Assembly (NCBI GenBank): GCA_022606425.2
Contig: JAHDVF020000424.1
Location: 266,210 to 330,209 of the forward strand
Length of the DNA: 64,000 nt
Reading direction: 5' to 3'
Source of the DNA: Lepidostoma basale
Taxonomy: Eukaryota; Arthropoda; Insecta; Trichoptera; Lepidostomatidae
Shown: positions 1,205 to 63,092 of the stretch, one piece after another
Numbering within the stretch: position 1 is the first letter of the stretch
How the letters are laid out: every line of letters starts with the position of its first letter
Program-made: the position numbers and the translations under genes
Notes under the pieces: generated by a model
Databases searched by the model: none
What the model was told of the DNA's origin: nothing
The model's input: only the letters and a program-made list of their open reading frames with translations

Positions 1205-1745
1205 ATAATATTTAAATAAAACGATTTTTTTACAACTATTTCCCCATTTGTCTATTTACGACAGCGGACCGGTTTCGCCAGGCTCGCTGGCATCTACAGA
1301 CTGATAGTTCTATCGGTAGTACCGGTACTGCCGATGCCAGTGAGCCTGGCGAAACCGGTAGCTGTAGAAATAAAGACAAATTTGGAAGTAATTATAAAAA
1401 AAAACATAGTTTTATTTAATTATTATTTAAATAGTCCATTGTTTTGGCCGAAACACTATGATATTTTAACATTTTATAACTGTTAATTCAAAAACTTTGT
1501 TTTATATCACAAATTGTATTTTTTTTAACATTACGACAGTAGTTTCATCAACCAATGTTGACATCATCATGTTTTTGTAACACCTGATGATGTCAACATT
1601 GGTTGATAAAACAGCTGTCGTAAAGTAAAATAAATACAATTTGTGATATAAAACAAAGTTTTTGAATTAACAGTTATAAAATTATTATTTAAAATGAACT
1701 TCCATCAAGAGATTTCAGTTAAATCATTTGATTATCATATAAAAT
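1205..1745. mobile_element. FB1 fold-back element with nested FB3
   Basis: FB1 arms lie at about 1212-1300 and 1330-1431. Both carry the pair CCGGTTTCG/CGAAACCGG and GCCAGGCTCGCTGGC-type hairpins, mirrored around 1310-1330. The FB1 outer tail (aatgaacttccatcaagag) resumes at 1693-1740, after an FB3 copy (1432-1680). The sequence attattatttaaa is present at both 1419-1431 and 1681-1693, a 13-bp target duplication for the FB3 insertion. Confidence 0.8.
1432..1680 (+). mobile_element. FB3 fold-back element, inserted in FB1
   Basis: Near-perfect inverted arms (1475-1522 against 1631-1680). The two hammerhead-like modules point outward. On the plus strand: CTGATGA 1584-1590, extra T, GTCAAC / GTTGAT helix II (1592-1597, 1602-1607), then AAAAC in place of GAAAC, AGCT, GTC. 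A unique end of 43 bases (1432-1474, with ttttggccgaaacac) lies only on the left. That same end occurs at 43205-43250 in the opposite orientation. Confidence 0.75.
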
Positions 1746-2160
1746 ATTATTATATACTTTGTAAGCATTGTCAAAAAGAGGATCACTTCGACGTATACTC
1801 AATTCTGAAGAAGCAATAAATACATTTACGTAAAACGTGTGAGTAGATATTATATACCTTTACGTAAATGGAAGATTCCTCCAAATCCAAAGCCATTCAT
1901 ACGCAGATAGACGACACCACTAGATGTAAATATAAGTACCTACATTATATTGTTATGAATGTAAATACACACGTAAAATCTACACCTACTCAAACCATTT
2001 TCAAATAAGGAATTTCTGATACCTGTAGAATACGAAGGGCTTCATTACGGATGAAAGCTTCTGAATGAACGGCATTCTGACATGTCTGAGGTATAAGTCG
2101 ATATTTTCTCTTAAACGTGATTTTGCCTCGACTATTATTCGGAAAATGGAAAATGATTGG
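1746..2160. other. AT-rich, nothing recognised
   Basis: No ORF with a family signature, no SINE boxes and no fold-back arms seen. Confidence 0.4.
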
Positions 2161-2164
2161 ATTT

Positions 2165-2405
2165 AGAAAATTCATGGTTTCAGCCGAAACACTATGATAC
2201 CTCAACATTATTCAATGTTTTAATTTTGAATTAGTATTATTAAACGTATCATAATTTATTTTAATGAGATTTTCGCGACAGCTGTTTCGCCAATGTATGT
2301 TATCATCATCGGATGTTACCGACAGTTGAATTTGTAATACTTGTTTGCAACGATGATGTCCTGATGATGTCAATAGGTCGGAAGAATCAAAACTTGTGTC
2401 TGACA
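2165..2405 (-). mobile_element. FB3 copy, degenerate
   Basis: Starts with the asymmetric FB3 end (cagccgaaacactatgatac, 2182-2201). It carries a minus-strand module: CCGATGA, GATAAC, then GCGAAAC AGCT GTC at about 2312-2276. The right arm is rearranged around 2350-2390. Confidence 0.6.
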
Positions 2406-2409
2406 TTCA

Positions 2410-2530
2410 CAAAAAATGTGAAAAGCAACGAGAAACTACCACATTAAAAAAGTCGAAATATAATTCTAAGAACCAGCAAATAGGTTAATTAACTTTGTTA
2501 CAAATATTTGCTGTAGGATTGAAAATTAAA
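2410..2530 (+). repeat. S1-associated 3' region fragment
   Basis: Matches the sequence that follows the TTGGGTTCAA module of S1 at 4447-4540 and 21135-21215: gaaa(g)caacg(g)gaaact, ccacattaaa, aagaaccagcaaa. It appears here without the SINE head. Confidence 0.5.
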
Positions 2531-2647
2531 AAAAATTATGAAAATTAACTTTTATACTCTTACTTAAGTTATTGTTACTTTTTGACGTAAACCCAAGAAG
2601 TACATCTGTATATCATAACTTTGTGTATCCGCATATGACGTCAAATA

Positions 2648-3185
2648 ATATCGAGATATTATAACTAACTAACCATCACGCCGTCTCCCCGAAGGGGTAG
2701 GCAGAAAGAATGGACTGCCACACCTTTCTTTCCTGACATATTTCTCTCGCTTCCTCAACATTCATACTTCTTGTCATGCACGCGCGTCGATTTCTCTGAC
2801 TCCTCACATGGCCGACATTCAATATTTGATTTATTTGATCGTGTCACGTTTTCCTTGGTCTTCCTCTATTTCTGGTACCATTTACATCATTAACATATAA
2901 TTTTTTTACCATTCTTTCTTCATTCATTCTTTCCATATGTCCAAACCATCTTAATGATCTTTTCATTATTTTGTTCATGACACCATCATTCGCACCGCAT
3001 TCACTTCTTATATTTTCATTCGACACTCTATCATACACAGAATATCCACACATTCGTCTAAGAGATCTCATTTCTACTGCATTTATTCTACTTTCATCCT
3101 TCCTTTGCCAGTTCCATGCTTCGCTTCCATACATAAGGGTCGGTAGAAGAACACCATTGTGCACTGCCATATCGAGATATTATAA
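2648..3185 (-). mobile_element. LINE-A 3' end with 17-bp target duplication
   Basis: A 5'-truncated LINE-A copy (2665-3168) flanked by atatcgagatattataa at 2648-2664 and 3169-3185, a perfect 17-bp target duplication. The minus-strand frame opens at MAVHNGVLLPTLMYGSEAWNW and runs through RWFGHMERM and RGRPRKT. It then meets one nonsense codon where other copies have W, and continues open through INQILNVGHVRS to AYPFGETA and a TGA at 2678-2676. The (GTTA)n tail follows directly. Target-primed insertion is clear. The element is dead in this copy. Confidence 0.9.
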
Positions 3186-3770
3186 TATTACGTAATACGT
3201 ATTCTCTGCAAAGCACATGATAAACGCTTTTTTACATTTACAGAATTCTTTCACGCTATCCCGCCACAAGCCGAGGCACCCTCCCACCCATTCTCCGGCT
3301 AGGGGTTCACATAGTCGGCTGTCCGGGACCAATCTGAGAAATTCAGAGGATTTCAAAAATGTGTCAGAGAACTATGTAAAATGAGCTGTCCACAGAATCC
3401 TAGAGTCCTAATGGGAATATTAAGAAAGGGCTGTTCCCACGCGCAAACTTGTGAAAGGAATTTGCGAATGGCGATTACCACCACTATACGAGTATACACG
3501 TAGTAGATATTTTACTACCTGCGCAATTTATCATTCAACGGTGTAAAAATGTTTTGGGCAAAATCTGGAAAATTGTAAAGATCGAAAAGATTTCGTGTAG
3601 GTTCTTTATCGCGATGAATAACATAAGGATTTTTATTATGTATTATATTATACAATAGTTAGGTAGGATAAGGTGATCTTTGAATATTTCGGAATAAATC
3701 ACGATGTTCTTCATATTTTTTTCCCGAAAGAAAATAAGATTTATGAATCTAATAAATAGTGGCAATATCT
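3186..3770. other. Unassigned; holds copy 1 of duplication R1
   Basis: A moderately GC-rich patch lies at 3240-3335 with no recognisable product. Bases about 3545-3765 (ttttgggcaaaatctggaaa, aataaatcacgatgttctt, gatttatgaat) recur in diverged form at about 4580-4735. Confidence 0.4.
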
Positions 3771-3774
3771 ATGA

Positions 3775-3885: not shown

Positions 3886-3899
3886 GTAATGATTTTTAT

Positions 3900-4310: not shown

Positions 4311-4400
4311 TTAAAATCCACTCATGATTGGGTCTTCAACCGGTTTCGGCAGCTCGCTACCATCTTCTGGATAACAGATTAGCTTACTATCACGTCATGA
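4311..4400 (-). mobile_element. FB1-type module, single arm
   Basis: Minus strand reads CAGAAGA, extra T, helix II GGTAG/CTGCC with loop CGAG, GAAAC, CG, GTT (about 4378-4345). This is the most complete FB1 module in the window. The only core change is A for T at the second position. The second arm is absent. Confidence 0.6.
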
Positions 4401-5045: not shown

Positions 5046-5046
5046 G

Positions 5047-5228: not shown

Positions 5229-5351
5229 AAAATTATTAACCCGCAATGGGTAAAATCCAGTATTTGTCTACAAGTATTTGTCTACATCCAAAAACAAACA
5301 AGTTTAATTAAAACTTTCGTATAGATGTAAAATACTTCTTTTCAACTACAT

Positions 5352-6212: not shown

Positions 6213-6360
6213 TTTATAAATTTAAAAATATTAAATAAATATATTTAATCACGGTATGGTTACAAAATATAATTGATGCCAACTAGTTTCGCTTGGACCC
6301 AAGCTTCTTCAGGGCAGTATAACAACTAAATAAAAAACACTAAATGTATAATACTTGTAC
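6213..6360 (-). mobile_element. FB7 element with complete hammerhead-like module
   Basis: The module reads on the minus strand 6316-6277. Helix I TGCC (6316-6313) pairs with GGCA (6280-6277). The core is CTGAAGA (6312-6306) plus one extra A. Helix II is GCTTG/CAAGC around GGTC (6304-6291). Then come GAAAC (6290-6286), TA and GTT (6283-6281). All consensus core positions are present. Only one arm is kept. Confidence 0.7.
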
Positions 6361-8868: not shown

Positions 8869-9030
8869 GAAAATAACTTTGTTTAATTCACTATTTAGTA
8901 AAAAAAATTTTTTTAAAACACGACATGTTTTGGAGGACACCTCCATCTTAGATGGAGCCTCCATCTAAGATGGAGGTGTCCTCCAAAACATGTCGTGTTT
9001 TTAAAAAAAAAAAATTGGAGGTATCCTCAA
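8869..9030. mobile_element. FB5 perfect palindrome
   Basis: Two perfect 43-base inverted arms (8915-8957 and 8959-9001) with a single base between them. Each arm holds the FB5 module with helix II GGAGG/CCTCC, ACATGT and GTC. Both arms carry identical core damage: CTAAGA in place of CTGAAGA and AAAAC in place of GAAAC. This points to recent arm homogenisation or duplication. Confidence 0.8.
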
Positions 9031-9344: not shown

Positions 9345-9500
9345 TTATTGTTTCTTGAACGATGCTGTTAAACTCCATATTAAATAATCTATACGAATGA
9401 AAACATTAGTTTTCTTGAAGTTATATTATATTTTATGTGAACTACATGTTTCGCTATTCTAAGGCATTATCAACACAATATACCTACAAGTATAGACAAT
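9345..9500 (-). mobile_element. FB2 fold-back fragment
   Basis: Outer arm (attgtttcttgaacgatg, aactccatattaaat) and minus-strand module TTGATAAT, GCCTT..., GCGAAAC, AT, GTA (about 9473-9440). One arm only. Confidence 0.6.
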
Positions 9501-9559: not shown

Positions 9560-9860
9560 TCTCAACAAACAACCGGTTTCGCTACCGCCAGAGCTTCGAC
9601 AGGGTTACAAAAGACACTACCTTTTCGTTTTTGAAAAGAAGAGTTTAATAACAAATTTACAAATAATAATAAATTGGATAATTTATAGAGCGCCATGTAT
9701 TAATATTAAATTTAATAATGCCACACCACAAATAAAGTGCTTCATACAGACCAGTCGGTCGATGCCACCGGGCCTGGCGAAATCGGTCGCTGTCAAAATA
9801 AAGACAAAAGTGAGGGAAGTTAAAAAATGTCGTTTTATTTCATTATTATTTTTAATGAAT
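9560..9860 (+). mobile_element. FB1 fragments and CCACAAA..GCTTCATA end motif
   Basis: An FB1 left scrap lies at 9569-9605. Then comes ccacaccacaaataaagtgc/ttcata (9721-9748), a short end motif found next to several fold-back elements. The FB1 right arm (GCCTGGCGAAATCGGTC, aataaagacaaaag) follows at 9755-9850. Confidence 0.55.
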
Positions 9861-10860: not shown

Positions 10861-10865
10861 GATTT

Positions 10866-11202
10866 GTTAATTGTTTCTTGAACAACAATGTAAAACTCCA
10901 TATTAAATTATTAATATGTATGAAAACACGATTGTTTTCAAGGAGTTTTATAATAATATATTTTTTATGACATGTTTCGCCCTTCTAAGGCATTATCAAA
11001 TGTGACGAAACTTCAACTTGTTGCAGTTTATATACACTAGTAAATGGAGCAGAATATGGTGATTAACGAAAATTGATGTGACTTTATACATTTTTAACAA
11101 TTAATTATTTGGGTAGGTCTTAGAAAGGCGAAACATGTCATTCATAAATATTATAATAAAACTTCTTGAAAACTAGTTTCATACATATTAATAATTTAGA
11201 AG
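10866..11202. mobile_element. FB2 fold-back element
   Basis: Inverted arms from attgtttcttgaacaacaa (10871) to ttcatacatattaataattt (11178). The left module reads outward on the minus strand (TTTGATAAT, GCCTTAGAAGGGC, GAAACATGTC) and the right one on the plus strand (TCTTAGAAAGGC, GAAACATGTC). Confidence 0.75.
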
Positions 11203-12329: not shown

Positions 12330-12560
12330 TCATATTTTAAATAAGATATTTTAATAATTAATACGAACGAAAACGTCACTTTTATAGAAGTTTTATTAAA
12401 TTTAATGGGAATGACATGATTCGCCCTTCTAAGGCATTATCAAATGTACTTTAGAATGGTGAAACATGTCATTCCCATAAAATATAATAAAACTTCTAGA
12501 AAACTGACGTTTTCATTCATATTAATTATTTAATATGGAGTTTTACATGATTGTTCAAGA
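12330..12560. mobile_element. FB2 fold-back element
   Basis: Inverted arms (acgaacgaaaacgtcac.. against ..gacgttttcattcatatt) around 12440-12450. Both modules keep GAAACATGTCATTCCCAT, or its complement with one base changed (GAATC). The plus-strand module has lost the TGATAATGCC part. Confidence 0.75.
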
Positions 12561-13932: not shown

Positions 13933-14170
13933 TATGTATTGTTTCTTGAACAATGATGTACAACTCAATATTGATAATTAATCCAAATGAAAACGTCCGT
14001 TTTCAAGAGGTTTTATTTTATTTTATGGGAATGAGATGTTTCATCTTGGAACAGCTTTACCAAATGCTTTAGCAAACTTTTGATACTTTCTTAGCAAAGC
14101 TAAATATACCCATTTTATAAATTAAAACTTCTATATAAAAGACATTTTCATTCCAATCAATTATGAAACT
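13933..14170. mobile_element. FB2 element, diverged
   Basis: The left arm begins tattgtttcttgaacaatga. The module is decayed to gatgtttcatcttggaacag. The right arm ends aacttctatataaaagac, ttttcattcc. Confidence 0.6.
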
Positions 14171-14281: not shown

Positions 14282-14540
14282 ATTTTTAAATAATAATTAA
14301 ATAAAACGATGTTTTTTTAACTACTTCCACTTTTGTCTTTATTTAGACAGCGACCGGTTTCGCCAGGCTTGCTGGCATCGACAGACTGATGCCAGCGAGC
14401 CTGGCGAAACCGGTCACTTTCTAAATAAAGACAAAAATGGAAGTAGTTAAAAAACATCGTTTTATTTAATTATTATTTAAAATGAACTTCCATCAAGAGA
14501 TTTCAGTAAAATCATTTGATTATCTTACATTTTTCATTAT
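14282..14540. mobile_element. FB1 fold-back element, complete
   Basis: Long inverted arms (about 14293-14385 and 14386-14478) with back-to-back modules. Left reads GACCGGTTTCGCCAGGC on the plus strand; right reads CTGATGCCAGCGAGCCTGGC then GAAACCGGTC. It ends with the FB1 tail aatgaacttccatcaagaga. The module has CTGAT directly joined to helix II GCCAG/CTGGC, so the two last core bases are missing in this subfamily. Confidence 0.8.
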
Positions 14541-15296: not shown

Positions 15297-15585
15297 CATA
15301 TTTTTATTGAACGCTATGGCATTCACACTGTGGAATTCTATAGTAATATACTTAGGAAATTAAAAATTACTTTGTTTAATCCACAAAATATTTTAAAAAT
15401 ATTAAAAAAAACAAGACATGTTTCGGAGGATACCTTCATCTTCAGGTGTAAAAATACAATGATTTATATTTTTACACCTGAAGATGGAGGTATCCTCCGA
15501 AATATGTCGTGTTTTTAATATATTTTTAAGAATTAGTGGATTTAACAAAGTTATTTTCAATTTCCTAAGTAAATATACATATTTT
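15297..15585. mobile_element. FB5 fold-back element, complete
   Basis: Two modules back to back. Plus strand: helix I ACAC (15474-15477) with GTGT (15509-15512), CTGAAGA (15478-15484), extra T, helix II GGAGG/CCTCC around TAT, GAAAT, AT, GTC (15506-15508). Minus strand: CTGAAGA 15445-15439, helix II GAAGG/CCTCC, GAAAC, AT, GTC (15417-15415). Outer arms match at 15306-15410 and 15518-15580. Confidence 0.8.
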
Positions 15586-16020: not shown

Positions 16021-16200
16021 TATTATTTAACTACGGTATAAACGGTAACTATGGTTATTATAACTGATTCCAACTTGTTTCGCTTGGACCCAAGCTTCAT
16101 CAGAGCAATTTATTATATTGCCCCGATGAAGGCTTGTTACTTTATAAATTTGACTTTAAAATGTCTAACCACAAAGTGAGTACTTCATAAGCAAAACTTA
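16021..16200. mobile_element. FB7 element
   Basis: Minus-strand module: CTGATGA (16103-16097), extra A, helix II GCTTG/CAAGC around GGTC (16095-16082), GAAAC, AA, GTT (16074-16072). Helix I pairing is weak here. A truncated second module on the plus strand (CCGATGAAGGCTTG, 16123-16136) faces away. It ends with the end motif ccacaaagtgagtacttcata at 16169-16189. Confidence 0.7.
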
Positions 16201-16621: not shown

Positions 16622-16828
16622 AAAAAATATTTGGCAATGAGACCATTTTCAGTAATTAATACAAATGAATTATTTTTTTATGTGAATGACATATTTCGCC
16701 TGTCGTCAGGCATTATCTAATGTCATTCGATAATGCCTTAAACAGGTGAAACATATAATTTTCATAAAAAATAATAAAATTTCTAGAAAACATACGTTTT
16801 CATTCGTTTTAATTATTTAATTAGAAAT
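16622..16828. mobile_element. FB2 fold-back element
   Basis: Inverted arms with modules at 16690-16720 (minus) and 16725-16755 (plus: GATAATGCCTTAAACAGG, GAAACATATAA). The right arm ends directly before a LINE-A fragment. Confidence 0.65.
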
Positions 16829-18914: not shown

Positions 18915-19060
18915 CTGGCATCGAGAGACTGGTCGATGCCAGCAAGCCTGGCGAAACCGGTCGCTGTCGAAATAAAGACTAAAATGGAAGTAGTTATAAA
19001 ACATCGTTTTATTTAATTATTATTTGAAATGAACTTTCATCAAGAGATTTCATATAATCG
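18915..19060 (+). mobile_element. FB1 right arm
   Basis: TCGATGCCAGCAAGCCTGGC, GAAACCGGTCGC, aataaagac, aacatcgttttatttaatt and the tail aatgaactttcatcaagaga. No left arm. Confidence 0.7.
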
Positions 19061-27016: not shown

Positions 27017-27222
27017 GACGACCTTCGTAGCCGAGTGGTAAGTGCTTTGACTGCAACATCGAAGGCCCCGAGTTCGATTCCTGGCGATGGCAGTGTGACA
27101 ATAAAATGGCAATAGATTAGCTACCGACGACATGTCACGAGAATCAATATGATAGCTATACCCTTTACATTGATTTGGCTCGCGCCGTAATGATGTAAAG
27201 AGCGACTCAAAATAATAATATA
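27017..27222 (+). mobile_element. S1 SINE, (AAT)n-tail variant
   Basis: Head GACCTTCGTAGCCGAGTGG (A box) and GAGTTCGATTCC (B box). Then gcagtgtgacaataaaatgg (internal deletion of the tgtctttggtctgg module), tcacgagaatcaatatgata, ttacattgatttggctcgcg and a short AAT tail. A good copy of the second tail type. Confidence 0.8.
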
Positions 27223-31050: not shown

Positions 31051-31114
31051 ATAAACATTTTTTTTAAATAATTTAATAGCACTTAATATAAATATATAAA
31101 TAATAATGAAATAA

Positions 31115-31325
31115 TAAGATGTTTAAACTGCCTCCACATTTATCTAAATTTTGACAGCAACCGGTTTCGCCTGGCTTGCTGGCATCGACAGAGCGAGCCT
31201 GGTGTAACCTGTCGCTGTCGAAATAAACACAAAAATGGAAGCATTTGAAAAACATCGTTTTATTTCATTATTATTAAAATGAACTTCCATCAAGAGAATT
31301 CAGTAAAATCATTCGATTAACTTTT
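31115..31325. mobile_element. FB1 fold-back element, short
   Basis: Left CAACCGGTTTCGCCTGGC, right GAGCGAGCCTGGTGTAACC, aataaacacaaaaatggaag, tail aatgaacttccatcaagaga. The right module is inactive by sequence (GTGTAACCTG for GCGAAACCGG). Confidence 0.7.
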
Positions 31326-32639
31326 ATATTTTATTTTTACACAATTTTTATAGTTCTAAATCATTTCAATTTTAAACTTCGTTAGGGTTGCAGAAACTTT
31401 CTAATTGATAGTAAAAAGAAGTGTACATGTTGGAAGTTGTTTTGTTGATATTTTGACAGCTACCAAAGTATTCACGTGAACACATGAATCAATTAAAATG
31501 TTTCTATGACTCTGGTGAGAACGAAACCGTTTGGTTCATTAAAACCAATAAAGCAGTGAAAAACAAAATATAAAAGTGTTTTCAAATTATTTTAATAAAG
31601 TTACACCACAAATTAAGTGCTTCATACAAAGGTATGAGCAGTTTTGAATAATTGTACAAACTATTTAACTGAGAAATCGAAAACAATGTTTCAGAAGATC
31701 AAAAAGGGAATTGAAGGGATTTATCACTATTAACTAGTAATAAATATTGGTGAATACGTCAGTTATCTAGAAGTTTTATAATTTTAAAAGAGAGTGACAT
31801 TATTCGCTTTGATAGTGCATTATCACGTGATTATCCTTTCGTATGCTCTCATTGCATGATCATTTTTCTATAATTGGACTAAGGTGTACGAGTATATATG
31901 GATCTTCTGGCATATAGAAGTTCCATTTACGTATGATTTAAATATTGTTATTACCTTTCTGTCATTTAATGAAGAAATCAATCTTTCTAAAGATCATATA
32001 ACATAAATCATGAAAATTTACTTTGGTGATGTATACATATGAAGACTCTAACATTATTAATCATTTTTCATACTAATCGAGAGATCTTTGTATTAATATT
32101 TTTTATCTGATCAAAGTCCAGACACCGCCTGCGCCTGGTGGATAATATTCTAGCAATTCTGACTCATTTGGACGAAAGGGAAGCAAGGAGATTGGAATAA
32201 TATCACTAAGGAGGCTGAAACTCTTCAAGAGTTGTAGGACCACCTGATGAAAGTAAGTTATTAAGGTAATATTTATCAAAAATACTCGGTCTTGTAGAAA
32301 TAAAATTCTAAAATTTCGTAACTTCTTTAACGACAATTTTCTTTTCATAATTTAGCGAAAGCTAAAAAATAGATTTTTTTGCGAAAAATTCAGTTCCTCA
32401 TTTACATATACATATACCTGAAAGTTCACAAGAAAAATAAAACTTGTTCAACACATTCCAAAACTGAGAAACCTTTACTTCTAAGTGGGCGTTATTAAAA
32501 TTATACAAAAGAAGAATTCAAATGTCTTCCCTTATTTCAATCGTGCATTAATAAAAATACGGTTAAAAATGGCTGCTTATTTTTTATACACTATAAAAAT
32601 AATTATTATATAATATGATATAATTTTAGATAAATTTAA
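31326..32639. other. Mostly AT-rich; FB2 scrap at 31735-31830
   Basis: End motif accacaaattaagtgcttc at 31605-31623. A decayed FB2 left arm (gtcagttatctagaagtttt) at 31757-31776. 32103-32348 has a minus frame without motif. No gene recognised. Confidence 0.35.
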
Positions 32640-32845
32640 GGTGCTGTGGAATTCCATAATGACGATTTTTTTATGAATTAAAACACATTTATTCCACTTT
32701 TGGATTTATTTTTCTCGACATGTTTCGAAGGCTTTACAACTTCATCATCGGGAGAAAGATACAAAACCGGTTAAACTTTATATCGTTCCCCCGATGATCG
32801 AGTTAACAGTGGAAAAAAACAGTGTTTTAATTCATTAAAAATCGC
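32640..32845 (-). mobile_element. FB6 element with strong helix I
   Basis: Minus-strand module. Helix I TTTCTC (32757-32752) pairs perfectly with GAGAAA (32716-32711). Core is CCGATGA (one change, C for T at the second base), extra T, helix II GAAG/CTTC (32743-32740, 32730-32727), GAAAC (32726-32722), AT, GTC (32719-32717). The outer arms (tatgaattaaaacac / tgttttaattcatta) invert around it. The right module is truncated (CCCCGATGATCGAG, 32788-32801). Confidence 0.7.
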
Positions 32846-35859: not shown

Positions 35860-36115
35860 AACTATTAAATAAAAAAACTTTGTTTTATGTATCACAATTT
35901 TTTTATTTTTCGCGACAGCTGTTTCGTCAACCTATGTTGACATCATCAGGTGTTACAATAATATATCATTTATATTTTCCACCTTTAATATTTTCTCCTA
36001 TAAACAGTAACAAACCGTTCATTTAATTAAAATAATTAGGTTTATTAAACTTTTTTTTTAATTTAACAGTTTATAATGTTAAAGTATCAGTGTTTTGACA
36101 GAAGCAATGAACTTT
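35860..36115 (-). mobile_element. FB3 element with well-paired module
   Basis: Minus strand: CTGATGA (35949-35943), extra T, helix II GTCAAC/GTTGAC around ATAG (35941-35926), GAAAC (35925-35921), AGCT, GTC (35916-35914). Helix I is short (C-G, mismatch, C-G). The asymmetric FB3 end appears at 36068-36110 in decayed form. Confidence 0.65.
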
Positions 36116-37534: not shown

Positions 37535-37690
37535 TTATTGTAACACCTGATGATAACAACATCGGTTGATGAAACAGCTATCTCGAAAATTTATAAAAAT
37601 GGCGATACCATAAACAGCGTTTTATATTTTAACAGTTTATTATGTTGAAGTATCGTAGTGTAATGGCCATAACAATTGACTATTAAAACA
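37535..37690 (+). mobile_element. FB3 right arm
   Basis: CTGATGA (37547-37553), AACAAC..GGTTGAT, GAAAC (37571-37575), AGCT, ATC in place of GTC. Then the asymmetric end (ttgaagtatcgtagtgtaat). Confidence 0.6.
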
Positions 37691-38691: not shown

Positions 38692-38930
38692 GAAAATATT
38701 TCCAGAAGTTTCATTATATTTTCTTATAGTTGTAACATGTGCTGCCTTGCTAAGGCATCAACAAATTACAGCTTAAACGTATGATAATGCCTTAACAAGG
38801 CAAAACATATCATTCCTATAAAATACAATGTAACTTTTAAAAACAGACTGTTTCATTCATATTAATTAAGAAAGAACATGTCATTCTTATTAAATATAAT
38901 ATAATGAATCTTCAAAACATATACTTTTTC
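38692..38930. mobile_element. FB2 fold-back element
   Basis: Left module (minus) with GTAACATGTGCTGCCTTGC. Right module (plus) TATGATAATGCCTTAACAAGGC with perfect GCCTT/AAGGC helix II, AAAACATATC. A repeat of the right end follows at 38870-38930. Confidence 0.65.
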
Positions 38931-39335: not shown

Positions 39336-39361
39336 TTTTTCAATATTTAATATTTAATATG

Positions 39362-39775
39362 GAGTTTCTTCTATGTTCGCCATACTTTGTGTTGTAGATG
39401 TTATATTTGTCTTTTTCTTTTTTATATACTTTGTATATACAACATTAACTTTAAAAAATATATATCAGACATGCTTCGGACAACCCGGTCCTTCCTCAGT
39501 GATATTATAAAGATATTTAAAATTGTTTAGAAATATGATCAGCTTTAACAGATGTTATAAAGATTTATTTTGAATAAATCTTTATAAAATCCAAAATAAA
39601 TCATAAACATCTGTCAAAACTGGTCATATTTGTAAACAATTTTATAATATTTTAAATATCTTTATAATATCACTAAGGACCGGGTTGTCCAAAACATGTC
39701 TGTATTTTTTTTGTTTAAAGCTAGTGTATATACAAAGTATATAAAAAAGAAAAAGACAAATTAAATATAGAATTT
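39362..39775. mobile_element. FB4 fold-back element, complete
   Basis: Outer arms mirror (tttgtctttttcttttttat at 39406 against ataaaaaagaaaaagacaaa at 39738). Left module on the minus strand: helix I ATATCA (39505-39500) with TGATAT (39467-39462), CTGAGGA (39499-39493), extra A, helix II GGAC/GTCC (39491-39478), GAAGC, AT, GTC (39470-39468). Right module on the plus strand (39670-39702) is shortened: CTAAGGACCGGGTTGTCC, AAAACATGTCTG. Confidence 0.8.
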
Positions 39776-40195: not shown

Positions 40196-40345
40196 ATTCA
40201 TTGTTAAACAATGACTTAAAACTCCATATTAAATCATTAACGATTAAAACCGTCTGTTTTTTTTTAAGTTTTATTATAATTTATAGGAATGACATGTTTC
40301 GCCTTTCTAAGCTATTATCAAATGTCATTTAATAATGCCATGTCC
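40196..40345 (-). mobile_element. FB2 fragment
   Basis: gttaaacaatgacttaaaac, tccatattaaatcattaacg, then GACATGTTTCGCCTTTC. Followed by the start of the second arm (caaatgtcatttaataatgcc). Confidence 0.6.
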
Positions 40346-40775: not shown

Positions 40776-40782
40776 GAATGAA

Positions 40783-41130
40783 TTTGATAATTAATACGAA
40801 TGAAAACGTCAGTTTTCTTGAAGTTTTGTTATATTTTTTGGGAAAAACATGTTTCGCCCTTCTAAGGCCTTTGATAATACATTTGATAATGCCTTAGAAG
40901 AGAGAAACATGTTATTTACATAAAATATAATAAAACTTCTAGAAAATTTTACGTTATATTTAAAAATTATTAAACACATATAAACAACAATATAAATATT
41001 TAATATGAATGAAATCGACAGTTTTCTAGAAGTTTTATTATAATACATTTTATGATTATTACATTTTACGTATTAATAATATCATATTTAATATGGACGT
41101 TTACATCACTGTTCAAGAAACAATAAAAAA
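40783..41130. mobile_element. FB2 fold-back, with an extra arm
   Basis: Arms at 40789-40870 and 40880-40950 with modules GTTTCGCCCTTCTAAGGCC (minus) and TTTGATAATGCCTTAGAAGAGAGAAACATG (in two parts, plus). Another arm pair fragment runs 40995-41130 and ends catcactgttcaagaaacaa. Confidence 0.7.
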
Positions 41131-41575: not shown

Positions 41576-41660
41576 TAATTAATACGAATGAAAACGTCAG
41601 TTTTATTATATTTTATGGGAATGACATGTTTCGCTCTTCTAAGGCTTTATCAAATCTCGC
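41576..41660 (-). mobile_element. FB2 left arm
   Basis: acgaatgaaaacgtcagttt, then GACATGTTTCGCTCTTC, TAAGGCTTTATCAAA. Cut off by the minisatellite. Confidence 0.65.
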
Positions 41661-41894
41661 GTATGGAAGTGGATGGAAGTGGATGGAAGTGGATGGAAGT
41701 GGATGGAAGTGGATGGAAGTGGATGGAAGTTGATGGAAGTTGATGGAAGTGGATGGAAGTGGATGGAAGTGGATGGAAGTGGATGGAAGTGGATGGAAGT
41801 GGATGGATGTGGATGGAAGTGGATGGAAGTGGATAGAAGTGGATGGAAGTGGATGGAAATGGAAGGAAGTGGATGGAAGTGGATGGAAGTGGAG
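41661..41894 (+). repeat. 10-bp minisatellite (ggatggaagt), 23 units
   Basis: Twenty-three consecutive 10-bp units, from gtatggaagt at 41661 to 41890, with only a few single-base variants, then ggag. All overlapping frames stay open (for example SGWKWMEVDG on the plus strand), so the long ORFs called here on both strands are artefacts. The first unit (gtatggaagt) and the flank after the last (ggagcaaagaactggcaaaa) together match the LINE-A codons for YGSEAWNWQK. The array appears to have grown out of that sequence. Confidence 0.9.
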
Positions 41895-42312
41895 CAAAGA
41901 ACTGGCAAAAGCAGAATAAAAGTAATAGCACTACCATATAGTAATAGCAGTAGAAATGAGATCTCATAGAGGAATCTACGATAAATATACATACATAAGA
42001 TAGAGTATGAAATGCAAATTTAAGAAGTAAATTTAGTGCGAATGAAAGTGTTATGAACAAAATAATGTAAGGGTCGTCAAGATGTTTTGGATACATTTAA
42101 ATAATTAATGAAAACAGAATGGTAAAGAAAGTATATGTTAACGCTATAAATAAAGGAAGGCCGAGGAAAACGTGGCACAATCACATCAATCAAATATTAA
42201 ATGCCGGCCACGCGAGGATTTGAATGTTGCTAATGCGACAGAATCATGTCAGGAAAGAAAAGTGTAGCGATATATTATTTCTGCTTATCTTTTTGGAAAA
42301 ATGCGTTATTTA
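41891..42312 (+). mobile_element. LINE-A fragment right of the minisatellite
   Basis: ELAKAE*K-type remnants, a damaged EMRSHRGIYDKYTYI, then KVYVNAINKGRPRKTWHNHINQ and AGHARI, and a decayed hairpin end (tttctgcttatctttttgga). Many stops. Confidence 0.7.
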
Positions 42313-42999: not shown

Positions 43000-43258
43000 A
43001 ACAATGTTATAATATCACAATTTATTTTTATTCACTGAGAATGTCGCGATAGCTGTTTTGCCAACCGATGTTAGCATCATCAGGTGTTACGAAAAACCAC
43101 AAGAGTTTTTTTGTAACAGCTGTCGCGATAGTAATAATGACTAAAATGAATAAAAATAAATTGTGATATTATAACAGTGTTATACTCGTTATTTTAAACA
43201 GTAATAATGTTGAAGTATCACAGTGTTTCGGCCAAAACAATGGACAATTTCATCGATA
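43000..43258. mobile_element. FB3 fold-back element
   Basis: Left module on the minus strand: CTGATGA, T, GCTAAC..GGTTGG, CAAAAC, AGCT, ATC (43083-43048). Right module truncated (TTTTGTAACAGCTGTCGCG). Asymmetric end (agtgtttcggccaaaacaat) at 43222-43241. Confidence 0.65.
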
Positions 43259-46030: not shown

Positions 46031-46700
46031 TATTTTGACTCTGTCTCTTAGGTTTATTCCTAACATAGCTCTTTCCATAGCTCTTTGGGTCAGCGGGAGT
46101 TTCTCGGCACTACTTACACTACTAGTTGGAATTACTGATACAAAATGTATGTTTCTTCTTCTTCTTCTTCTTATAATAAATCTGACGATCTGTGCCACAG
46201 TAATCATGTCTCCTGCGTTAATGAGGTGTCCGGAGGGGACTTCGTAAGCGGCTGTATATGCGAGTCTGTCACTATCAGATCTGGCTACATAGTCCTTCCG
46301 GTATCTTTTTTTTTTTTTTTTTTTTTTCTCCTTGTATACAACAGGTCGCTTGAACCCAATTACTGTGTACAATTTATTTTAGCTATTATATTGATTCTCA
46401 TGACATGTGATAGGTAGCCAATCTATCGCCATTTTATTGTCACGTGAATTCTACACCAGACCAATGACAGTGTGACAATCACACTACCATCGCCGGGAAT
46501 CGAACCCGGGACCTTGAGAATGGAAGTCGGAGCTCTTACCACTCAGCCACGATTTCGGTCTTCTTCTAGATATACTCCACCTGACGATATCCTCTATTTT
46601 GCTAGTTTTTTTCTTATGTCTGCGTTACGGACACGACCTCACGGTACTGGATCTTAGGACCTTCATCTCAGTATTCTTGGCAGACCTCTGATTCGTACAG
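46031..46700 (-). mobile_element. LINE-B copy interrupted by S1
   Basis: Minus strand, right part (46690-46557): a damaged LRDRVRNADIRKK relic. Left part (46300-46150): RKDYVARSDSDRLAYTAAYE and VPSGHLINAGDMITVAQIVR, then a (CTT)n tract at 46152-46172 that is part of the GAA tail. A second decayed LINE end (46030-46140) follows. Confidence 0.75.
46302..46556 (-). mobile_element. S1 SINE inserted in LINE-B
   Basis: Minus strand: GTGGCTGAGTGG (A box), GGTTCGATTCCC (B box), agtgtgattgtcacactgtc, attggtctggtgtagaattc, acgtgacaataaaatggcga, tcacatgtcatgagaatcaa, attgggttcaagcgacctgt, tgtatacaaggag and an A-run of about 20. A near full-length TTGGGTTCAA-tail copy, so likely young. Confidence 0.88.
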
Positions 46701-49444: not shown

Positions 49445-49700
49445 CAATATAACTAACTAACTAACTATAGAGAAGGATGGAGTACCGCATGAGTAAAAGT
49501 GTGACAGTTCATTCTTTCTGCCTACCCTTTCGGAGAGACGGTGTGATGGTTTGTAAGTTAGTTAGTTAACTAACTAAACATCACACCGTCTCCCCGAAGG
49601 GGTAGGCAGAAAGAATGGACTGCCACACTTTTCTTTTCCTGACATATTTCTCTCACTTCCTCAACATTCATACATCGTGCATGCACGCTCGATATGTCAT
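49445..49700. mobile_element. S3 inserted into the (CTAA)n tail of LINE-A
   Basis: Order: (AACT)n 49450-49466, S3 on the plus strand (gaaggatggagtaccgcat .. ggtgtgatgg), (GTTA)n, then (AACT)n and the LINE-A tail on the minus strand from 49580. The two 3' tails face each other in the palindrome gttagttaactaac (49558-49571). Confidence 0.75.
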
Positions 49701-51889: not shown

Positions 51890-53058
51890 CCATAATGTAA
51901 CTACTCAAGGGGAGAAAACAATTCGTCTCATACGGAATTTTTCAATCGGAACATTTTCTTGTATATTTAGGGGTGCCACAAGGTTCAAACTTAGGGCCAC
52001 TCCTCTTCACCATCTTCATAAATGATATTGCGAAGGTGATAAACTTCTCGCGATTTCTTTTATTTGCCGATGATCTGAAATTATTCCTGGAAATTAAAAA
52101 TCCTGAAGACTGTCTTCGCCTCCAGTCGGACATCAATAATATTGTTAACTGGAGTCACAGTAATCAAATGCAATTCAATGTCTCCAAATGCGTTATGCTA
52201 TCATTTACTAGAGCATTGAGAACTGTATATCATAGATACACAATGAACAACCAGCAACTGTCACATGTATCTACGATGAAGGATCTCGGAATCATCTATG
52301 AGAGTAGGCTGACTTTTCGTGCACATATCGAGAGGATTTGTGGCATTGCACTGAGGATGTTGGGGTTCATCGTCCGGACCGGAAGGGTTTTCAGGGATCC
52401 CAATGTGCTCAGAGTCCTATACAACGCATTGGTTCGGAGCAGGCTCGAAAGTGGTTCTGTGATATGGAGTCCTAACGAGGCGAGATATTCCGTTATGCTG
52501 GAGAGGGTTCAGAAAAAAATTCTGAGGTATCTCTACATGAGGGAGTATGGTAGCTTTCCGTGGCTCTATTCCACGGCATTTCTTCTAGGAATGCTCGGAA
52601 CCAATTCTTTACAGCTTCGAAGAGATGGACATCTAATAACCCATTTCTTCAGATTAATTAGGGGATACTTCGAGAACTCGGCCGTACTGGAGGATGTTGG
52701 TCTTTTTGTCCCCGATAGATATCTCCGACAGTGACAGCACAGATTGTTTTACCTACCGGCCGCCAGAACCAATCTGCCTCTGGTGACACCGGTGGGAAGA
52801 GCAATTAGTTTGCTGAACGCGGTCTCTTCGGAGATCGACGTCTTTCATGTTAGTGAAAGTACGTTCAGGGGGCAAATTCTATTGACTTTGGAAAGTATCT
52901 TGTCTGCCTACTGTCGAACCATCTCTAATGCGTTCCTAGTACTTTGTTGTATTTTTATGATATTTTTCCTGTACTTAATAGATGCCTTAAACATTTTCCT
53001 ATTTGTAATGTCTATTGAGTTAATAAACTGATTTGAACTGATTTGATTTGATTAAATA
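51890..53058 (+). pseudogene. Jockey/CR1-group LINE reverse transcriptase, C-terminal half, one stop
   Basis: An almost intact frame from KGRKQFVSYGIFQSEHFLVY (51905) to 53031. It shows GVPQGSNLGPLLFTIFINDI (RT block 4), RFLLFADDLKLF (block 5, the FADD catalytic aspartates), NQMQFNVSKCVML (block 6) and HVSTMKDLGIIY (block 7). The family C-terminal domain follows with ALVRSRLESGSVIWSP and VERVQKKILRYLY-like segments. A single in-frame TGA (52732-52734) precedes LPAARTNLPLVTPVGRAISL and the end. The endonuclease and RT blocks 1-3 are missing (5' truncation). The 3' end is tgatttgaactgatttgatt, a short pentamer-like tail. It reads as a recent insertion, inactive. Confidence 0.9.
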
Positions 53059-54925: not shown

Positions 54926-55085
54926 ATTTATTGTTTCTTGAACAATTATGTAGAACTCCATATTGAATATTTAATTCGAATGAAAATGTCAGTTTTCTAG
55001 ATGCTCTATTATATTTTATGAGAATGACATGTTTCTCCCTTCTAAGGCATTATCAAATGTGACAAAACATTGACTGACATTCGTC
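54926..55085 (-). mobile_element. FB2 left arm
   Basis: tattgtttcttgaacaatta, aatgtcagttttctagatgc, then GACATGTTTCTCCCTTCTAAGG, CATTATCAAATGTGAC. Minus-strand module TTTGATAAT..GAAACATGTC with GAG for GCG. Confidence 0.65.
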
Positions 55086-58450: not shown

Positions 58451-58836
58451 TCCGAGACATGAAAAATAGAAAATGCTTCAAATAAGTTAATAAAAAATTT
58501 CAGAGCGACTGATTAAAATGTATAAAAGAATTCAATAATTGAATAATGCGTAGATATTCACGGCTGGTAACAATACATGTTGCGATCTTGGGAAAATCCA
58601 TGTAACTTGTCTCCCTCAACCGACGTTTCGGATATCGTTTCAGTCTCCCTCTTCAGGAGTGTTATCTATAAACAGGATAGTTAGTCATAACTACCCTAAA
58701 TATGGAAATTGAAACAATCTCTGAAACGTCGATCGATGGAGATATTATATTATAATTTAACCAAGATCCCAAAAAACCTATTGTACAATCGATTCAGATT
58801 TTGTTTTATTCCTAAAATATGTTTAAAAATCTCATT
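58451..58836. mobile_element. FB8 element
   Basis: Minus-strand module: CTGAAGA (58656-58650), extra G, helix II GGAGA/TATCC (58648-58644, 58634-58630; four of five pairs), GAAAC (58629-58625), GTC (58624-58622). A right-hand remnant lies on the plus strand (ATCTCTGAAACGTCGATCG, 58718-58736). Confidence 0.55.
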
Positions 58837-58837
58837 T

Positions 58838-59046
58838 ACAGTTTCTTGAACAATGATGTAAAACTAAATATTAAATTATTAATATGTATGAAAAAAGGAT
58901 AGTTTTCAAGGAGTTTCTTTGAAATATTTATGTATGACATGTTTCGCCCTTGATAACGCCTAATAAGGGTGAAACATGTCATACACAAGTATTTTAATAA
59001 AACTCCTTGAAAACAATCGTTTTTTCATACATATTAATAATTTAAA
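58838..59046. mobile_element. FB2 fold-back element
   Basis: Arms of about 95 bases (cagtttcttgaacaatgatg .. ; .. ttcatacatattaataattt). The modules have shrunk to GACATGTTTCGCCCTTGATA (left) and CCTAATAAGGGTGAAACATGTC (right, in two parts). Confidence 0.75.
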
Positions 59047-59292
59047 AAATCTTATTGCGATGGCAATGTCGACTGATGCTAAAAAAAATAAAGAAGAATG
59101 TGTATTTTTTAAATGACACTCGTAAAATGATAATGTATGAAATTAAGAGATTTTTTGATACACTGCATTTATAGAGCGGGTTACCCCGTTGGAGAGTTAT
59201 TAAAACCATGACAAAATAAATAAATAAATAAAGTTGTTGGAGAGTCTTTGAATATGAACGGTCTTATGATGCAAGTATGGAAAGGGACTCAC
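59047..59292 (-). other. Start of the receptor intron
   Basis: Follows the exon on the minus strand and begins GTGAGT at 59292-59287. AT-rich, with no repeat recognised in this stretch. Confidence 0.7.
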
Positions 59293-59620
59293 GGACGTAA
59301 ATGTTGGACATGAGCGTGGCGGGCAGGCAGAACACGATGACCAGGATATCGGCCACGGCCAGGTTGACGATGAAGAAGTTGGTGACGGTGCGCATGCGCG
59401 GCGAGCGGAAGACCACGGCGATGACGAAACAGTTGCCGACCAGGCCCACGGCGAACACCAGCACGTAGGCCACGCAGTACACGGCCGTCATGGCCGCGCT
59501 GTGGCGGTAGTACATGTCCGCGCCCGCGCTGGCCGCCGTCGCCGCCGCCACCGCCGCGCTCGTGGCCCCCGGCGCCCCCGTCAGGTTGGCCGCCAGCAGC
59601 GGCTCCTCGGCGGGAGACAT
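59293..59620 (-). CDS. SIFaR: SIFamide-receptor-like GPCR, first coding exon
   Basis: Partial gene: 109 codons plus one base, from ATG at 59620-59618 to 59293, where GTGAGT gives a consensus phase-1 splice donor. The encoded N-terminus is short and Ala-rich (residues 18-34). It has one N-glycosylation sequon, NLT at 12-14. TM1 spans about 46-70 (GN at 62-63) and is followed by the loop [15 protein letters not shown]2 spans about 82-104 ([12 protein letters not shown], with D91 and P100). The exon stops at NIYV; the next base, C, would begin the conserved Pro codon. This loop and TM2 are characteristic of insect SIFamide receptors, plasma-membrane peptide receptors of the neuropeptide FF/GnIH receptor group. 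An allied receptor of that group cannot be excluded. No later exon was recognised in the window. The frame upstream stays open, but this is the first in-frame ATG I found. The exon is far richer in CpG than its surroundings. Confidence 0.82.
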
Positions 59621-59880
59621 TACCTGGGCATCGCTCCTGCACTCACTAAACCCGACGGCACTTATACACAGCTCCGGCTTCAGCGCGACTAACTTCTCGA
59701 AACTTCCAACACTTCCGAAACTTGCGAAACTTTGCTTGCTGGGCGGGTGGCCGGAGGTGGTGTGATCGCGGCGGAGTCCCGGCGCTGAGTGCTGTCCCTA
59801 GTCCTAGTGCAAGTCTCCCTAGCCTCCGCCTGGTACTACAACCCTCCGATACAATAGCGCATGCGCGAGCTCACCCCACC
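59621..59880 (-). promoter_or_regulatory. CpG-rich 5' flank / 5' UTR of the receptor exon
   Basis: GC-rich DNA directly upstream of the receptor start, ending abruptly near 59880. It contains GCGCATGCGC at 59858-59867, the palindromic core of NRF-1-type sites (erect wing in Drosophila). There is no clear TATA box. A run of (a)cttc(c/g)aaact-like repeats lies at 59697-59733. Whether transcription starts here, or an upstream non-coding exon is spliced in, cannot be told from sequence. Confidence 0.4.
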
Positions 59881-62430
59881 CCTGATTTACTTTATCAAAC
59901 TTTTCCTCGATGAACTTATTCAAAAAGTTTCTACTTGATTTCTACCGGAACATTTCAAAAACTCGTAGAATTCCTTTTTAATCTACACAATTCGTACAAA
60001 GTTAAATTGACTTGAAAATGGAAATGCTGGCTACTTATATTATTTATTAAAAAAAATAATAGGCAAAAATCCGAATGTAATCAAAAAATAGTACGAGAAT
60101 ATTTTGAATACAAGAAAACAGAAAGGAATACTTTTTTGGATTTTTGTTCTGATTATTTTTACAGATTCTGATTATTATGACAGAAGTGTACAAAACAAAA
60201 GAAGATCAAATTGGTGTTGCTAATTGTGAAATTTTAACGAGTGTGAAAAAAATATTTACATTGGAAGTTACAACTTGATTACGATTGTACAGTGAACCAA
60301 GTTTTTCAAAAATAGAAAATCTTTACTTCCGTGAATATTTCACGGGTTGCAACTAGTATTATTTAAATTGCCTTTAACAAATCATAATCAAAGCTGTGAT
60401 ATTTTGCATCACTATTGAAATATCACGTCTTACAATCGAAACTTGTAATTATCTTATTAAATCATGTTCTTTCAGTTAATTATCTAAAATTATATTAATT
60501 TTAATAAGTGTAAGTTATTTTTCTCGCACAAATATTACTTACATAACCAAAATGTAACAAATATTAATGTTTGTTAATACAACTTTGCGTTAAAGAATAG
60601 CTAATTGTTTGCTGTATATAAATATGTAACAATAAATGTATTACTACCTGAATGACACGGCAAATAATAATTATAAATAATCATAGCTGGCTTGACATTC
60701 CACACCAGATTGCATTCTATATTTAAACGTGTCTTTACGATTAGATCGAAAACAATAACAGGTACAAAAACGACATAATGTCGGCCAAACCTTCCACCAC
60801 AATGGCAAGAGAAGACGAGAGTTATAGTCCTTTTGAGGGTATTTCTTACAGAAGTAGCTGCAATAACATAAAAAAGATGAAGAAGAAGCAGATAAAACAT
60901 ATTTAATAGTAAAAGAAACATTAATCATCAGGTATACTGTTTCATTTATTCAACTGGCTCCTAAGAATATTGGGATTTGTTTAAAAAAAAAATTATCAAT
61001 TTACACGCAGTTTTTTTTCCATTTCCACAACTATATATTTATATCGTATATGTTTATACCGTTGTCTCGATAATGAATGTGTAAATAAATTCGAAATATT
61101 AAAAAAAAATTAACTCACAAGAGGAAAAAGCAGAGTTTTACTTCATAAAAATTCATCATTATAAAATTCCACCTTAGTATTTCAAAAATTAAAAGTTTCA
61201 AAATAAATAACACAATTTTGGGGGATACCTTTCTATATTATGAAAAGTAACACAATTCAATATAATGTATTATTTAATAACAACATACATAAGTAAGAAA
61301 ACATAAAATTATAATGATAGAGAAATTTAAAAGAATGCAGTTTTTAAAACTAAATAAAAGGTTCACATCATAATATAATTTAGATCGTAAGATTTAAATA
61401 ATAATTAATGTAATAATTATAAGAGTTATTTACAATTTCCTATTAAATCAATGCAAGGCTGGGTTTTATACAAATATAATTAATTAAATTATCATTAAAT
61501 ATCATTAATTAAAATATTTGGTTAACTACGATATAATTAGTGAGTATATAGTAGAAATAAGTATACAATTTACAAAATAAATTCTTCAAGAGTTATGTTG
61601 GTAACACAACAGCATCTTAAATTAAATTAATGTTGGTAAATGTGGTATCCATGTTTCACATTACAGATTTTTTAAATCCACAATGTATTTAATTGCACAA
61701 ATATAATCACAATTATTACTATATTTTGGTTAGTAAAGAAACTAAATTATTGAATTTTTTTTTAAATAAACAGGAATTTCTTTTATTGCAATTTTTCCCA
61801 GTATGAGTAAATGATATTACTGCTATTATTTACAAAATATTAATATTTTTTTAATGCAGGTACTCAAATATTTATATACATATCATTAAGTTTCTTTAAT
61901 GAATCTATTGCAAGTATTTCAAGTAGGGAACGTTAAAAATACGGGGATACAGATAAATAACAGTTCTTTATATGTGGTGAGCAAAAGAGAAATTGAAACT
62001 TTCGTTTGAATCCCTGAATGAAAAATGTAATCGACATATTTGAAGCAGATGTTCTGAATGTAATTCCATTCGAAGCCTGTTTTTGTACTTTTGTGGAAAC
62101 AGTTATTTAATATATGCTGGATATTTTTTTCCACAAATGAGAATACTTTAACGTTCTAAAAATACTACTTTTACGTCTCGTCGCAACCTCTACTAAAATA
62201 ATAAGGAACATTAGTTTTAGAATTTTGAAAAACAAAATGGTAATTTAAAAAAATAATAAAACGAAAACAGTGACACAAAAGACCTTATTTGAATCAATTT
62301 TTACTGTTTCTTTGATAACGGCATTATTATGATTTAGATAAATTAGGAAAAAAAAATTACATGTCGAAACATAACAAAAGGCCACATTTTTATATTGATG
62401 TTAACTTAGTAGGTAAATATAAGATTATAC
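59881..62430. other. AT-rich upstream DNA without recognised repeats
   Basis: About 2.5 kb in which I recognise none of the LINE, SINE or fold-back families that fill the rest of the window. Open frames (60601-60928, minus) lack motifs. Confidence 0.4.
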
Positions 62431-62434
62431 TTGT

Positions 62435-63092
62435 ATTTCTTCTATGTTCGCCATACTTTGTGCTGTAGATGTTTTATTTGTCTTTTTCTTTTTTATATAA
62501 TTTGCATATACAACACTAACTTTAAAAAAAATATAATTACACATCAGACATGTTTCTGACAACCGGTCCTTTTCAGTGATACATATTATAATGATACATA
62601 TTTAAAATATATAATAATAAAATTGTTTACTAATATAAAGATTTATTTTGAATGGCGCGTTGAAATTTTGCATGTTAATAATAGATATATAACTTTGAGC
62701 TATCTCGAAATTTTAGAAATTAAAAAAGCGATTAAAAATTAAGAAAATATTGTGAATAATCAAATTAATTTAACGTCAATTCCAATCTTTGATTTCTTTC
62801 CTTTAAATAAGAACTTTAAATTATTATTTTAAATTTTTTATTGATTCATAATATTTGTTATAACAAAATAATATTTGTTAATATTTGTTATAACAAAAGC
62901 AAAAACGTTCCAAAAATAAATCTTTATAACATCCGTCAAAACTGATCATATTTGTTACCAATTTTATAATATTTTAAATATGTATTTATGAAGAAGGACC
63001 GAAGTCCAAAACATGTCTGATATGTATTTTTTTTTTCAAGTTAATGTTGTGTATACAAAGTATATAAAAAAGAAAAAGACAAATTATCCTTA
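62435..63092. mobile_element. FB4 fold-back element, large spacer
   Basis: Outer arms (tttgtctttttcttttttat at 62478; ataaaaaagaaaaagacaaa at 63064). Left module on the minus strand: helix I ATCA/TGAT, CTGAAAA, GGACCGGTTGTC, AGAAAC, AT, GTC (62579-62540). Right module on the plus strand: TGAAGA, A, GGAC CGAA GTCC, AAAAC, AT, GTC, TGATAT (62987-63023). The spacer is about 400 bases of AT-rich DNA. Confidence 0.7.

Follow-up and report, generated by a model that had tools for sequence, protein, structure and literature searches.

Small variants of the type I hammerhead ribozyme in Penelope-like elements (PLEs) have reportedly been treated by Cervera and de la Pena (2014) and by Lunse, Weinberg and Breaker (2017). 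As far as the accessible part of the source describes them, these ribozymes are minimal, lie in the pseudo-long terminal repeats (pLTRs) of the elements, lack most of helix III and are thought to act as dimers (PMC7761336). A PLE protein has been described, in the available portion of another report, to cut and extend both strands of its target from two adjacent RNA sites that bound a genomic tail, and the PLE hammerhead to cleave only when the protein is present (PMC11167929). The mode of PLE insertion and the role of the PLE hammerhead are called open questions in the accessible parts of both papers (PMC11167929, PMC7761336). Here we analyze a window of 64,000 nucleotides from Lepidostoma basale (Trichoptera; assembly GCA_022606425.2, contig JAHDVF020000424.1, positions 266,210 to 330,209 of the forward strand), in which many short inverted repeats, or fold-backs, carry a hammerhead-like module, grouped below into families A to J. 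We propose, with a probability of about 0.8, that each fold-back is one PLE insertion made of two cDNAs that lie inverted and head to head, with their 3' ends outward.

A first-pass annotation of this DNA had described the fold-back families as unrelated. This view has to be given up, because modules of families A, B and E adjoin matches to GIY-YIG, the PLE endonuclease fold, in the same genome, about 280-590 nt downstream of them. The GIY-YIG search of the 768.8 Mb assembly scored 150 of 541 candidates and found at least 62 places over the cut-off. The family B module starts 453 nt (about 450) downstream of the GIY-YIG match, and the family E module 353-397 nt after it at four loci, with distances of 541 and 587 nt at two further loci where the module is weaker or the match shorter; at one locus a family A module follows a decayed GIY-YIG match, in a decayed open reading frame (ORF), by 276 nt. 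The two longest frames of the family B element (PLE-B) scanned with Pfam carry RVT_1 and GIY-YIG, and GIY-YIG pieces are the only ORF link of families A and E. Judged from these sequences, the modules of A, B and E sit in what corresponds to the pLTR of a PLE, and at least these three would be PLE families, families C, D and F-J being assigned by resemblance only. The earlier suggestion that the elements descend from, or parasitize, a ribozyme system consequently holds in its first half, as descent from the minimal PLE hammerhead, and not in its second, the fold-back being, on the present evidence, the shape that these PLE insertions take and no separate parasite. Two loci with a GIY-YIG match, L282 and L283 (contigs C102 and C729), look bacterial and may be symbiont or contamination; their ORFs are dense and the match lies in ORFs of 621-623 aa, which we take to be UvrC-like.

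The orientation of the modules was counted using 44 window matches and 58 of 101 matches elsewhere in the genome, a set that includes one window pair with a weak family label and two loci that are duplicates. All 21 pairs of same-family neighbors within 500 nt were head to head (11 from the window, 10 from other loci) and none was direct, whereas neighbors of different families were head to head in 0 of 10. In an animal retrozyme, or a viroid-like circular RNA with hammerheads on both strands, a single small element would likewise carry the module on each strand, and metazoan non-LTR retrozymes carry type I hammerheads according to the part of the source available (PMC7229834). Direct tandem repeats would be expected of such elements, and none of the 21 pairs is direct (one direct A pair, discussed below, occurs among the matches listed elsewhere). 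Furthermore, the insertion begins upstream of the module, which is itself part of the inserted unit; a unit produced by cutting at the ribozyme site would differ in this. The modules in fold-back RNA are also predicted to be buried in hairpins (-85 to -165 kcal/mol in six folds of five elements). We rejected the retrozyme or viroid-like origin on these grounds and hold it to be very improbable. Of the kinship with PLEs or animal retrozymes that the first-pass annotation had offered, the PLE side, with its minimal hammerhead, is thus the one to be retained.

The arms of a two-armed insertion do not end alike: one stops at an inner site, and the other extends 40-44 nt further 3' to an outer site, the additional stretch forming a tail. 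Of the 25 loci mapped to PLE-B, 15 were two-armed, and all 15 had exactly one 44-nt tail, one arm ending at reference positions 3161-3175 and the other at 3208-3231, and the 5' ends of the arms varied from reference position 316 to 3114; two of the loci, L277 and L278, probably represent a single duplicated element. Within a locus the arms were more alike than between loci (identity 0.989 within and 0.979 between loci; 14 loci, none of 5000 permutations as high), and they shared variants in 8 of the 14. Target-site duplications were strongly supported: in 9 of 13 loci the two flanks had an exact word of 10 nt or more in common, compared to 0 of 156 mismatched pairs. The junction between the arms differed in 13 of 13 loci examined and held filler in several; in L253 (junction 1841-2114) 272 nt of other sequence, either captured DNA or a later insertion, separate the two arms.

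Inverted arms could also arise by self-priming or template jumping, in which a single target-primed cDNA is continued on an antisense transcript or by folding back of the cDNA 3' end. Self-priming has been proposed for the PLEs of Adineta from their palindromic inverted junctions, in the part of that report at our disposal (PMC3846280), and some B junctions, such as that of L279, hold filler of a snap-back-like kind. Nevertheless, in all 15 two-armed loci the second arm stops 44 nt before the first, at a fixed site of its own, which speaks against self-priming because folding back and copying of the first cDNA would include the tail; moreover, the arms of B loci differ in their 5' truncation. 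Self-priming would be rescued if antisense transcripts began exactly at the inner site, and on balance we find it rather unlikely. Inverted repeats with flanking duplications would likewise be expected of DNA transposons resembling miniature inverted-repeat transposable elements, whose terminal repeats contained a hammerhead-like palindrome by chance. Such elements should have symmetric ends and duplications of fixed length. Here the ends are asymmetric, with a tail on one side, the duplications differ in length (about 9 to 19 nt), and the B arms are parts of a PLE truncated at variable points, long copies containing GIY-YIG ORFs; we rejected this origin and give it practically no credence.

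Family A shows where the arms of the short fold-backs begin. Copies with upstream sequence read ...TATATAAAC...GTTTTGTC/ACATTTGATAATG, the slash marking the predicted transcription start (+1), with a TATA box at -31 and a TCA initiator, the arthropod-type initiator consensus. Exactly at +1 started 22 of 42 A arms and the longer arm in 13 of 21 A loci, the rest of these lying between -10 and +5. In family B a TATAT at -33 precedes CC/AGTCTG, a predicted start that rests on few short copies. The module core lies at +5 in A and at +4 in B, and the modules of both families begin at the predicted start or just downstream of it. Since they often start there, short A copies look like reverse-transcribed leaders. 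Flanking matches of at least 9 nt were found in 12 of 21 A loci, compared to 18 of 420 mismatched pairs, and of at least 11 nt in 7 of 21, compared to 1 of 420. The A tail is about 40 nt long, and an automatic rule found one tail in 16 of the 21 loci.

It is family A that lends itself best to the idea that the fold-back is a non-autonomous unit of its own, a PLE-borne hairpin that is transcribed and copied whole, the short families amplifying as palindromes. The family is very numerous (TTGTCACATTTGATAATGCCTTAGAAGGGC with at most one mismatch occurs at 1197 places in the genome, the reversed control at none, and the query for the centre had 1122 candidates); of the 20 fetched A loci, 8 have the junction CAAATGTACATTTG and 5 agree over the whole 50-nt centre, and the arms share almost no private variants. 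A recurrent A centre, however, is equally expected from two cDNAs that end at +1; other A loci have different junctions and one arm cut short, and the B junctions examined all differ. We therefore regard amplification of such a unit as unlikely. Since their arms share almost no variants, the A loci alone cannot separate unit amplification from de novo formation.

Several observations weigh against the fold-backs being paired PLE cDNAs. None of the 62 GIY-YIG places lies inside the window, and families C, D and F-J were tied to no ORF, no dedicated ORF search having been made for them. About 10 of the 25 mapped PLE-B loci are single-armed. The two B arms have no variant in common in 6 of 14 loci, where variants are few or the overlap is short, and one of these six, L267, has 6 variants on one side only. 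A flank match of 10 nt is missing in 4 of 13 B loci and one of 9 nt in 9 of 21 A loci, and in the window the D fold-backs and others that were tried gave no convincing target-site duplication. The automatic rule found no tail in 3 A loci and a tail on both arms in 2, which by eye look like chance extension, and A arms share only 1 of 81 variants across 16 loci. Among the A-module matches listed (about 100 of the 1197 places) two pairs are head to head and one is direct; the members of the direct pair lie about 200 nt apart (G000:C328:40644-40673 and 40848-40877). Finally, the 20 fetched A loci were selected by similarity to a query containing the fold-back centre, and consequently the sample favors centres near +1; in the window fold-back at 10865-11199 one arm reaches about 116 nt past +1, so that not all A copies start there.

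How paired cDNAs would come about can be outlined as follows. After a staggered cut by the PLE protein, reverse transcription would be primed from the 3' end on either side of the break, with one and the same source RNA as template for both cDNAs, whose ends would then be joined in the middle. If priming took place close to the mRNA 5' end, it would carry the cDNAs to or near the capped end, leaving a short, near-perfect palindrome with a hammerhead on each strand, while priming at the 3' pLTR copy would yield arms that enter the ORF and stop at random. Buried as the modules are predicted to be in the hairpins of fold-back transcripts, the ribozyme motif is probably a passenger there.

The overlap of promoter and module suggests a possible role for the ribozyme in the full-length element, which we put forward tentatively, the odds being somewhat against it: the promoter would split the module, and the complete copy at the 3' end or in read-through RNA would cleave the tail from its own template, acting as a built-in brake. 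Transcription would start inside or next to helix I, leaving the module at the mRNA 5' end without most of its 5' strand and inert. The module of the 3' pLTR or of read-through RNA would be complete and able to cleave, cutting off the tail where reverse transcription starts. Head-to-head leader dimers would then correspond to strong-stop-like products of two-strand target-primed reverse transcription.

The module itself, a CTGANGA-type core followed by one base, a hairpin, GAAAC, a palindrome and GTC or GTT, had been recognized correctly. The pattern CTGANGAN{8,20}GAAAC has 11 matches in the window, two of them overlapping, where 0.31 are expected from shuffled sequence, and none of 100 shuffles reached 11. 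A covariance-model search, which the first-pass annotation had proposed, agreed. A model trained on 21 window modules (R1) and run with filters off found 39 window matches at E<0.01 (at least 20.9 bits), 18 of them outside the training set; in 824 kb of unrelated DNA, searched with default filters, there was 1 match of such strength (26 bits), the runner-up scoring 17.3 bits. This background, 100 of 119 viral-contig loci, had itself been chosen by a hammerhead-like pattern and is therefore not a hammerhead-poor sample. The hammerhead families of Rfam gave no match in the window even at E<=10; what Rfam did match at that threshold were small-RNA look-alikes and tRNA. Exact pattern scans of contig collections returned 2 and 119 viral-contig stretches and at least 117 genome-contig stretches, those listed among the latter being bacterial and archaeal records; these were taken as chance because, for such large collections, the patterns are short. 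Elsewhere, a module-like match with a long helix II and a weak family label (L289, 8957-9009) lies near a stretch resembling its own reverse complement. The claim that the modules lie in fold-backs is right for the many head-to-head pairs and does not extend to the single-armed modules, which are a good part of all those in the window.

Compensatory variation around the core was confirmed in an alignment of 21 modules (A1), in which two family H rows are misaligned in helices I and III. In helix II 90.5% of cells were paired and each of the five pairs showed double changes, the C3-G8 pair was kept in 100% (CG 17, UA 3, UG 1), and helix I was paired in 62.5%; one base lies between A9 and helix II in 21 of 21 rows. 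The covariation score was 0.717, compared to 0.217 +/- 0.029 for shuffled alignments and at most 0.156 when slid. A second alignment, with 63 distinct rows from 101 modules at 38 other loci of the same genome, fitted to the structure model, gave 89.4% for helix II, 67.3% for helix I and a score of 0.669, compared to 0.210 +/- 0.018 shuffled. In this second alignment covariation exceeded that of shuffles by score but not by the count of pairs with double changes (493 of 500 shuffles reached the same number). Together, the two alignments support helices I and II, helix I being weak in family A, and the outer-flank pairing that had been pointed out is good in D, E, F and G but poor in A.

The core is less fixed than had been described. 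Families C, D, E, G and I have copies with the invariant CUGANGA...GAAA; the core of family F reads CCGAUGA, and family H copies have CUGAAGA or CUGGAGA. It is changed in A, where UUGAUAA replaces C3-G8 by U3-A8 (C3U with G8A), in B (CUGUCGA, A6U) and in J (CAGAAGA, U4A). Because the B and J changes fall at positions 6 and 4, these modules cannot be presumed active, and as the A swap may be a single event inherited by many copies, its value as covariation is only suggestive. The candidate for helix III is a loopless palindrome of 4-8 nt that would have to pair between two molecules. A candidate cleavage position of the NUH type, GUC or GUU, is present after this palindrome.

In the window, the fold-backs of C and E show one tail and a duplication, and those of D one tail without duplication. 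Three B fold-backs have the tail on the right. The first (1200..1736, tail at about 1694-1736) has modules at 1257-1310 (-) and 1316-1369 (+, E 0.04), is flanked by the 9-nt ATATAAAAT at 1191-1199 and 1737-1745, as found by eye, and is split by a nested C fold-back (1432..1679) with the tail on the left, a 14-nt target-site duplication, AATTATTATTTAAA, and modules at 1526-1581 (-) and 1573-1628 (+). The second (14288..14522) has a 12-nt duplication, TCTTACATTTTT, and modules at 14343-14395 (-) and 14376-14424 (+). The third (31085..31326) has a complete module at 31150-31202 (-), the other arm lacking a core, and no flanking duplication of at least 7 nt was found for it. A further B module at 18919..18971 (+) has the tail on its 3' side, and only about 15 nt of the other arm. 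Family E is represented by a fold-back at 15309..15570 with the tail on the left, a 19-nt duplication, AAATATACATATTTTTATT, and modules at 15406-15456 (-) and 15467-15517 (+), and by a short one at 8904..9008 (8913-8962 (-), 8954-9003 (+)) with decayed cores. The D fold-backs, both with the tail on the left, are a long-armed one at 39346..39762 (39459-39510 (-), 39662-39709 (+), helix I UAUCA/UGAUA) and one at 62430..63087 (62538-62587 (-), 62977-63026 (+)) with arms about 490 nt apart.

Among the A fold-backs, the longer one at 10865..11199 (10960-11010 (-), 11098-11148 (+, E 0.016)) has a left arm that continues about 116 nt upstream of the predicted start into the pLTR and a right arm cut near helix II; a loosely scored alignment of window A copies, which assigns spurious upstream starts to several of them, was used only for this arm and for the printed flanks. 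At 12356..12560 (tail right) a 17-nt duplication, AAATAAGATATTTTAAT (12339, 12561), accompanies a module at 12404-12454 (-) and an arm without core. The fold-back at 13935..14170 (tail left) is decayed, with no model match, and that at 58837..59045 (tail left) has only a weak one (E 0.13). The remainder lie at 16655..16815 (16679-16730 (-), 16716-16766 (+)), 38700..38870 (38725-38775 (-, E 0.076), 38770-38820 (+, E 0.016)) and 40781..40960 (40872-40922 (+)). Single-armed A modules occur at 55017..55067 (-), with a tail, and at 9431-9484, 40282-40332 and 41614-41664 (all -). An H head-to-head pair of GAAACGTC type (58610..58745) has a module at 58610-58667 (-) and, with no model match, a decayed module with GAAA at 58723 (+). 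Other single modules belong to C, at 35905..35960 (-), the best-scoring of the window (50.3 bits), 2269-2323 (-), 37536-37591 (+) and 43040-43094 (-); to F, at 32708..32762 (-), with helix I UUUCUC/GAGAAA; to G, at 6272..6323 (-), with copies at 16063-16114 (-) and 30238-30289 (+); and to J, at 4329..4380 (-), with core CAGAAGA and weaker relatives at 34288-34339 (+) and 9562-9613 (-).

Among other features of the window, two ORFs were scanned with Pfam, of which 51901-52731 matched RVT_1 and the other had no match. An exon of a rhodopsin-type G protein-coupled receptor lies at 59264-59797, with named relatives that are orexin-receptor-like or neuropeptide-FF-receptor-like; the named matches are insects, weevils and other beetles being among the closest. 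A fold-back without hammerhead module (49495-49632) consists of inverted copies of repeat family D5, of which 11 window copies are listed, and a tandem array with a 10-nt unit (TGGATGGAAG type) at 41613-41943 is open on both strands. Four tRNA-like sequences are possibly heads of short interspersed elements: those at 36655-36726 and 46485-46556 reach the Rfam gathering score, ARAGORN identifying them as Gly, and those at 27021-27092 and 35122-35193 are weaker.

Neither minimal PLE hammerheads nor inverted pLTRs of which one bears a tail are new. A literature search judged mostly by title and start of the abstract, and covering few subscription papers, recognized no report of one-tail counts, single-source arms, leader dimers or promoter/ribozyme overlap; the one-tail evidence for two cDNAs and the overlap of promoter and ribozyme look new. 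Many copies with clean duplications indicate insertion as two cDNAs of one RNA source from two fixed sites. Both this mode of insertion and the ribozyme motif overlapping a predicted transcription start allow specific and cheap tests, and the PLE reading explains a class of palindromic repeats easily mistaken for unrelated fold-back families.

The elements described here resemble several known systems in part. With the small type I PLE hammerheads they share, as far as the accessible source goes, a minimal hammerhead in a pLTR with helix III mostly absent; compared to those ribozymes, which we know from a description citing them, they have changed core positions in A, B and J, an A9 separated from helix II by one base throughout, and an overlap of core promoter and ribozyme. 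The metazoan non-LTR retrozymes are likewise short and non-autonomous, with a type I hammerhead and in some cases a weak helix III, but the available part of their description has them as direct tandem repeats with RNA circles (PMC7229834), where we find inverted dimers with a PLE tail. For the Penelope elements of Adineta vaga, the portion of the work we could draw on reports head-to-head inverted pLTRs, palindromic junctions, target-site duplications, solo pLTRs, a 31-bp tail optionally on one inverted pLTR, and a TATA box and initiator in the pLTR (PMC3846280). By comparison, the single tail (15 of 15 two-armed B loci) and the origin of both arms from one source are countable in our loci, which furthermore include short dimers with arms often beginning at the predicted mRNA start. 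Finally, in PAc, a Penelope/Poseidon element of the green anole, the hammerhead lies at the boundary of leader and ORF, two RNA start sites bound a genomic tail, both target strands are cleaved and extended, and RNA is cleaved only with protein added, according to the part of the report accessible to us (PMC11167929). That work was carried out in vitro, and its start sites agreed with genomic and RNA-seq ends; our loci look like the joined in vivo product of two-strand priming of the PAc kind.

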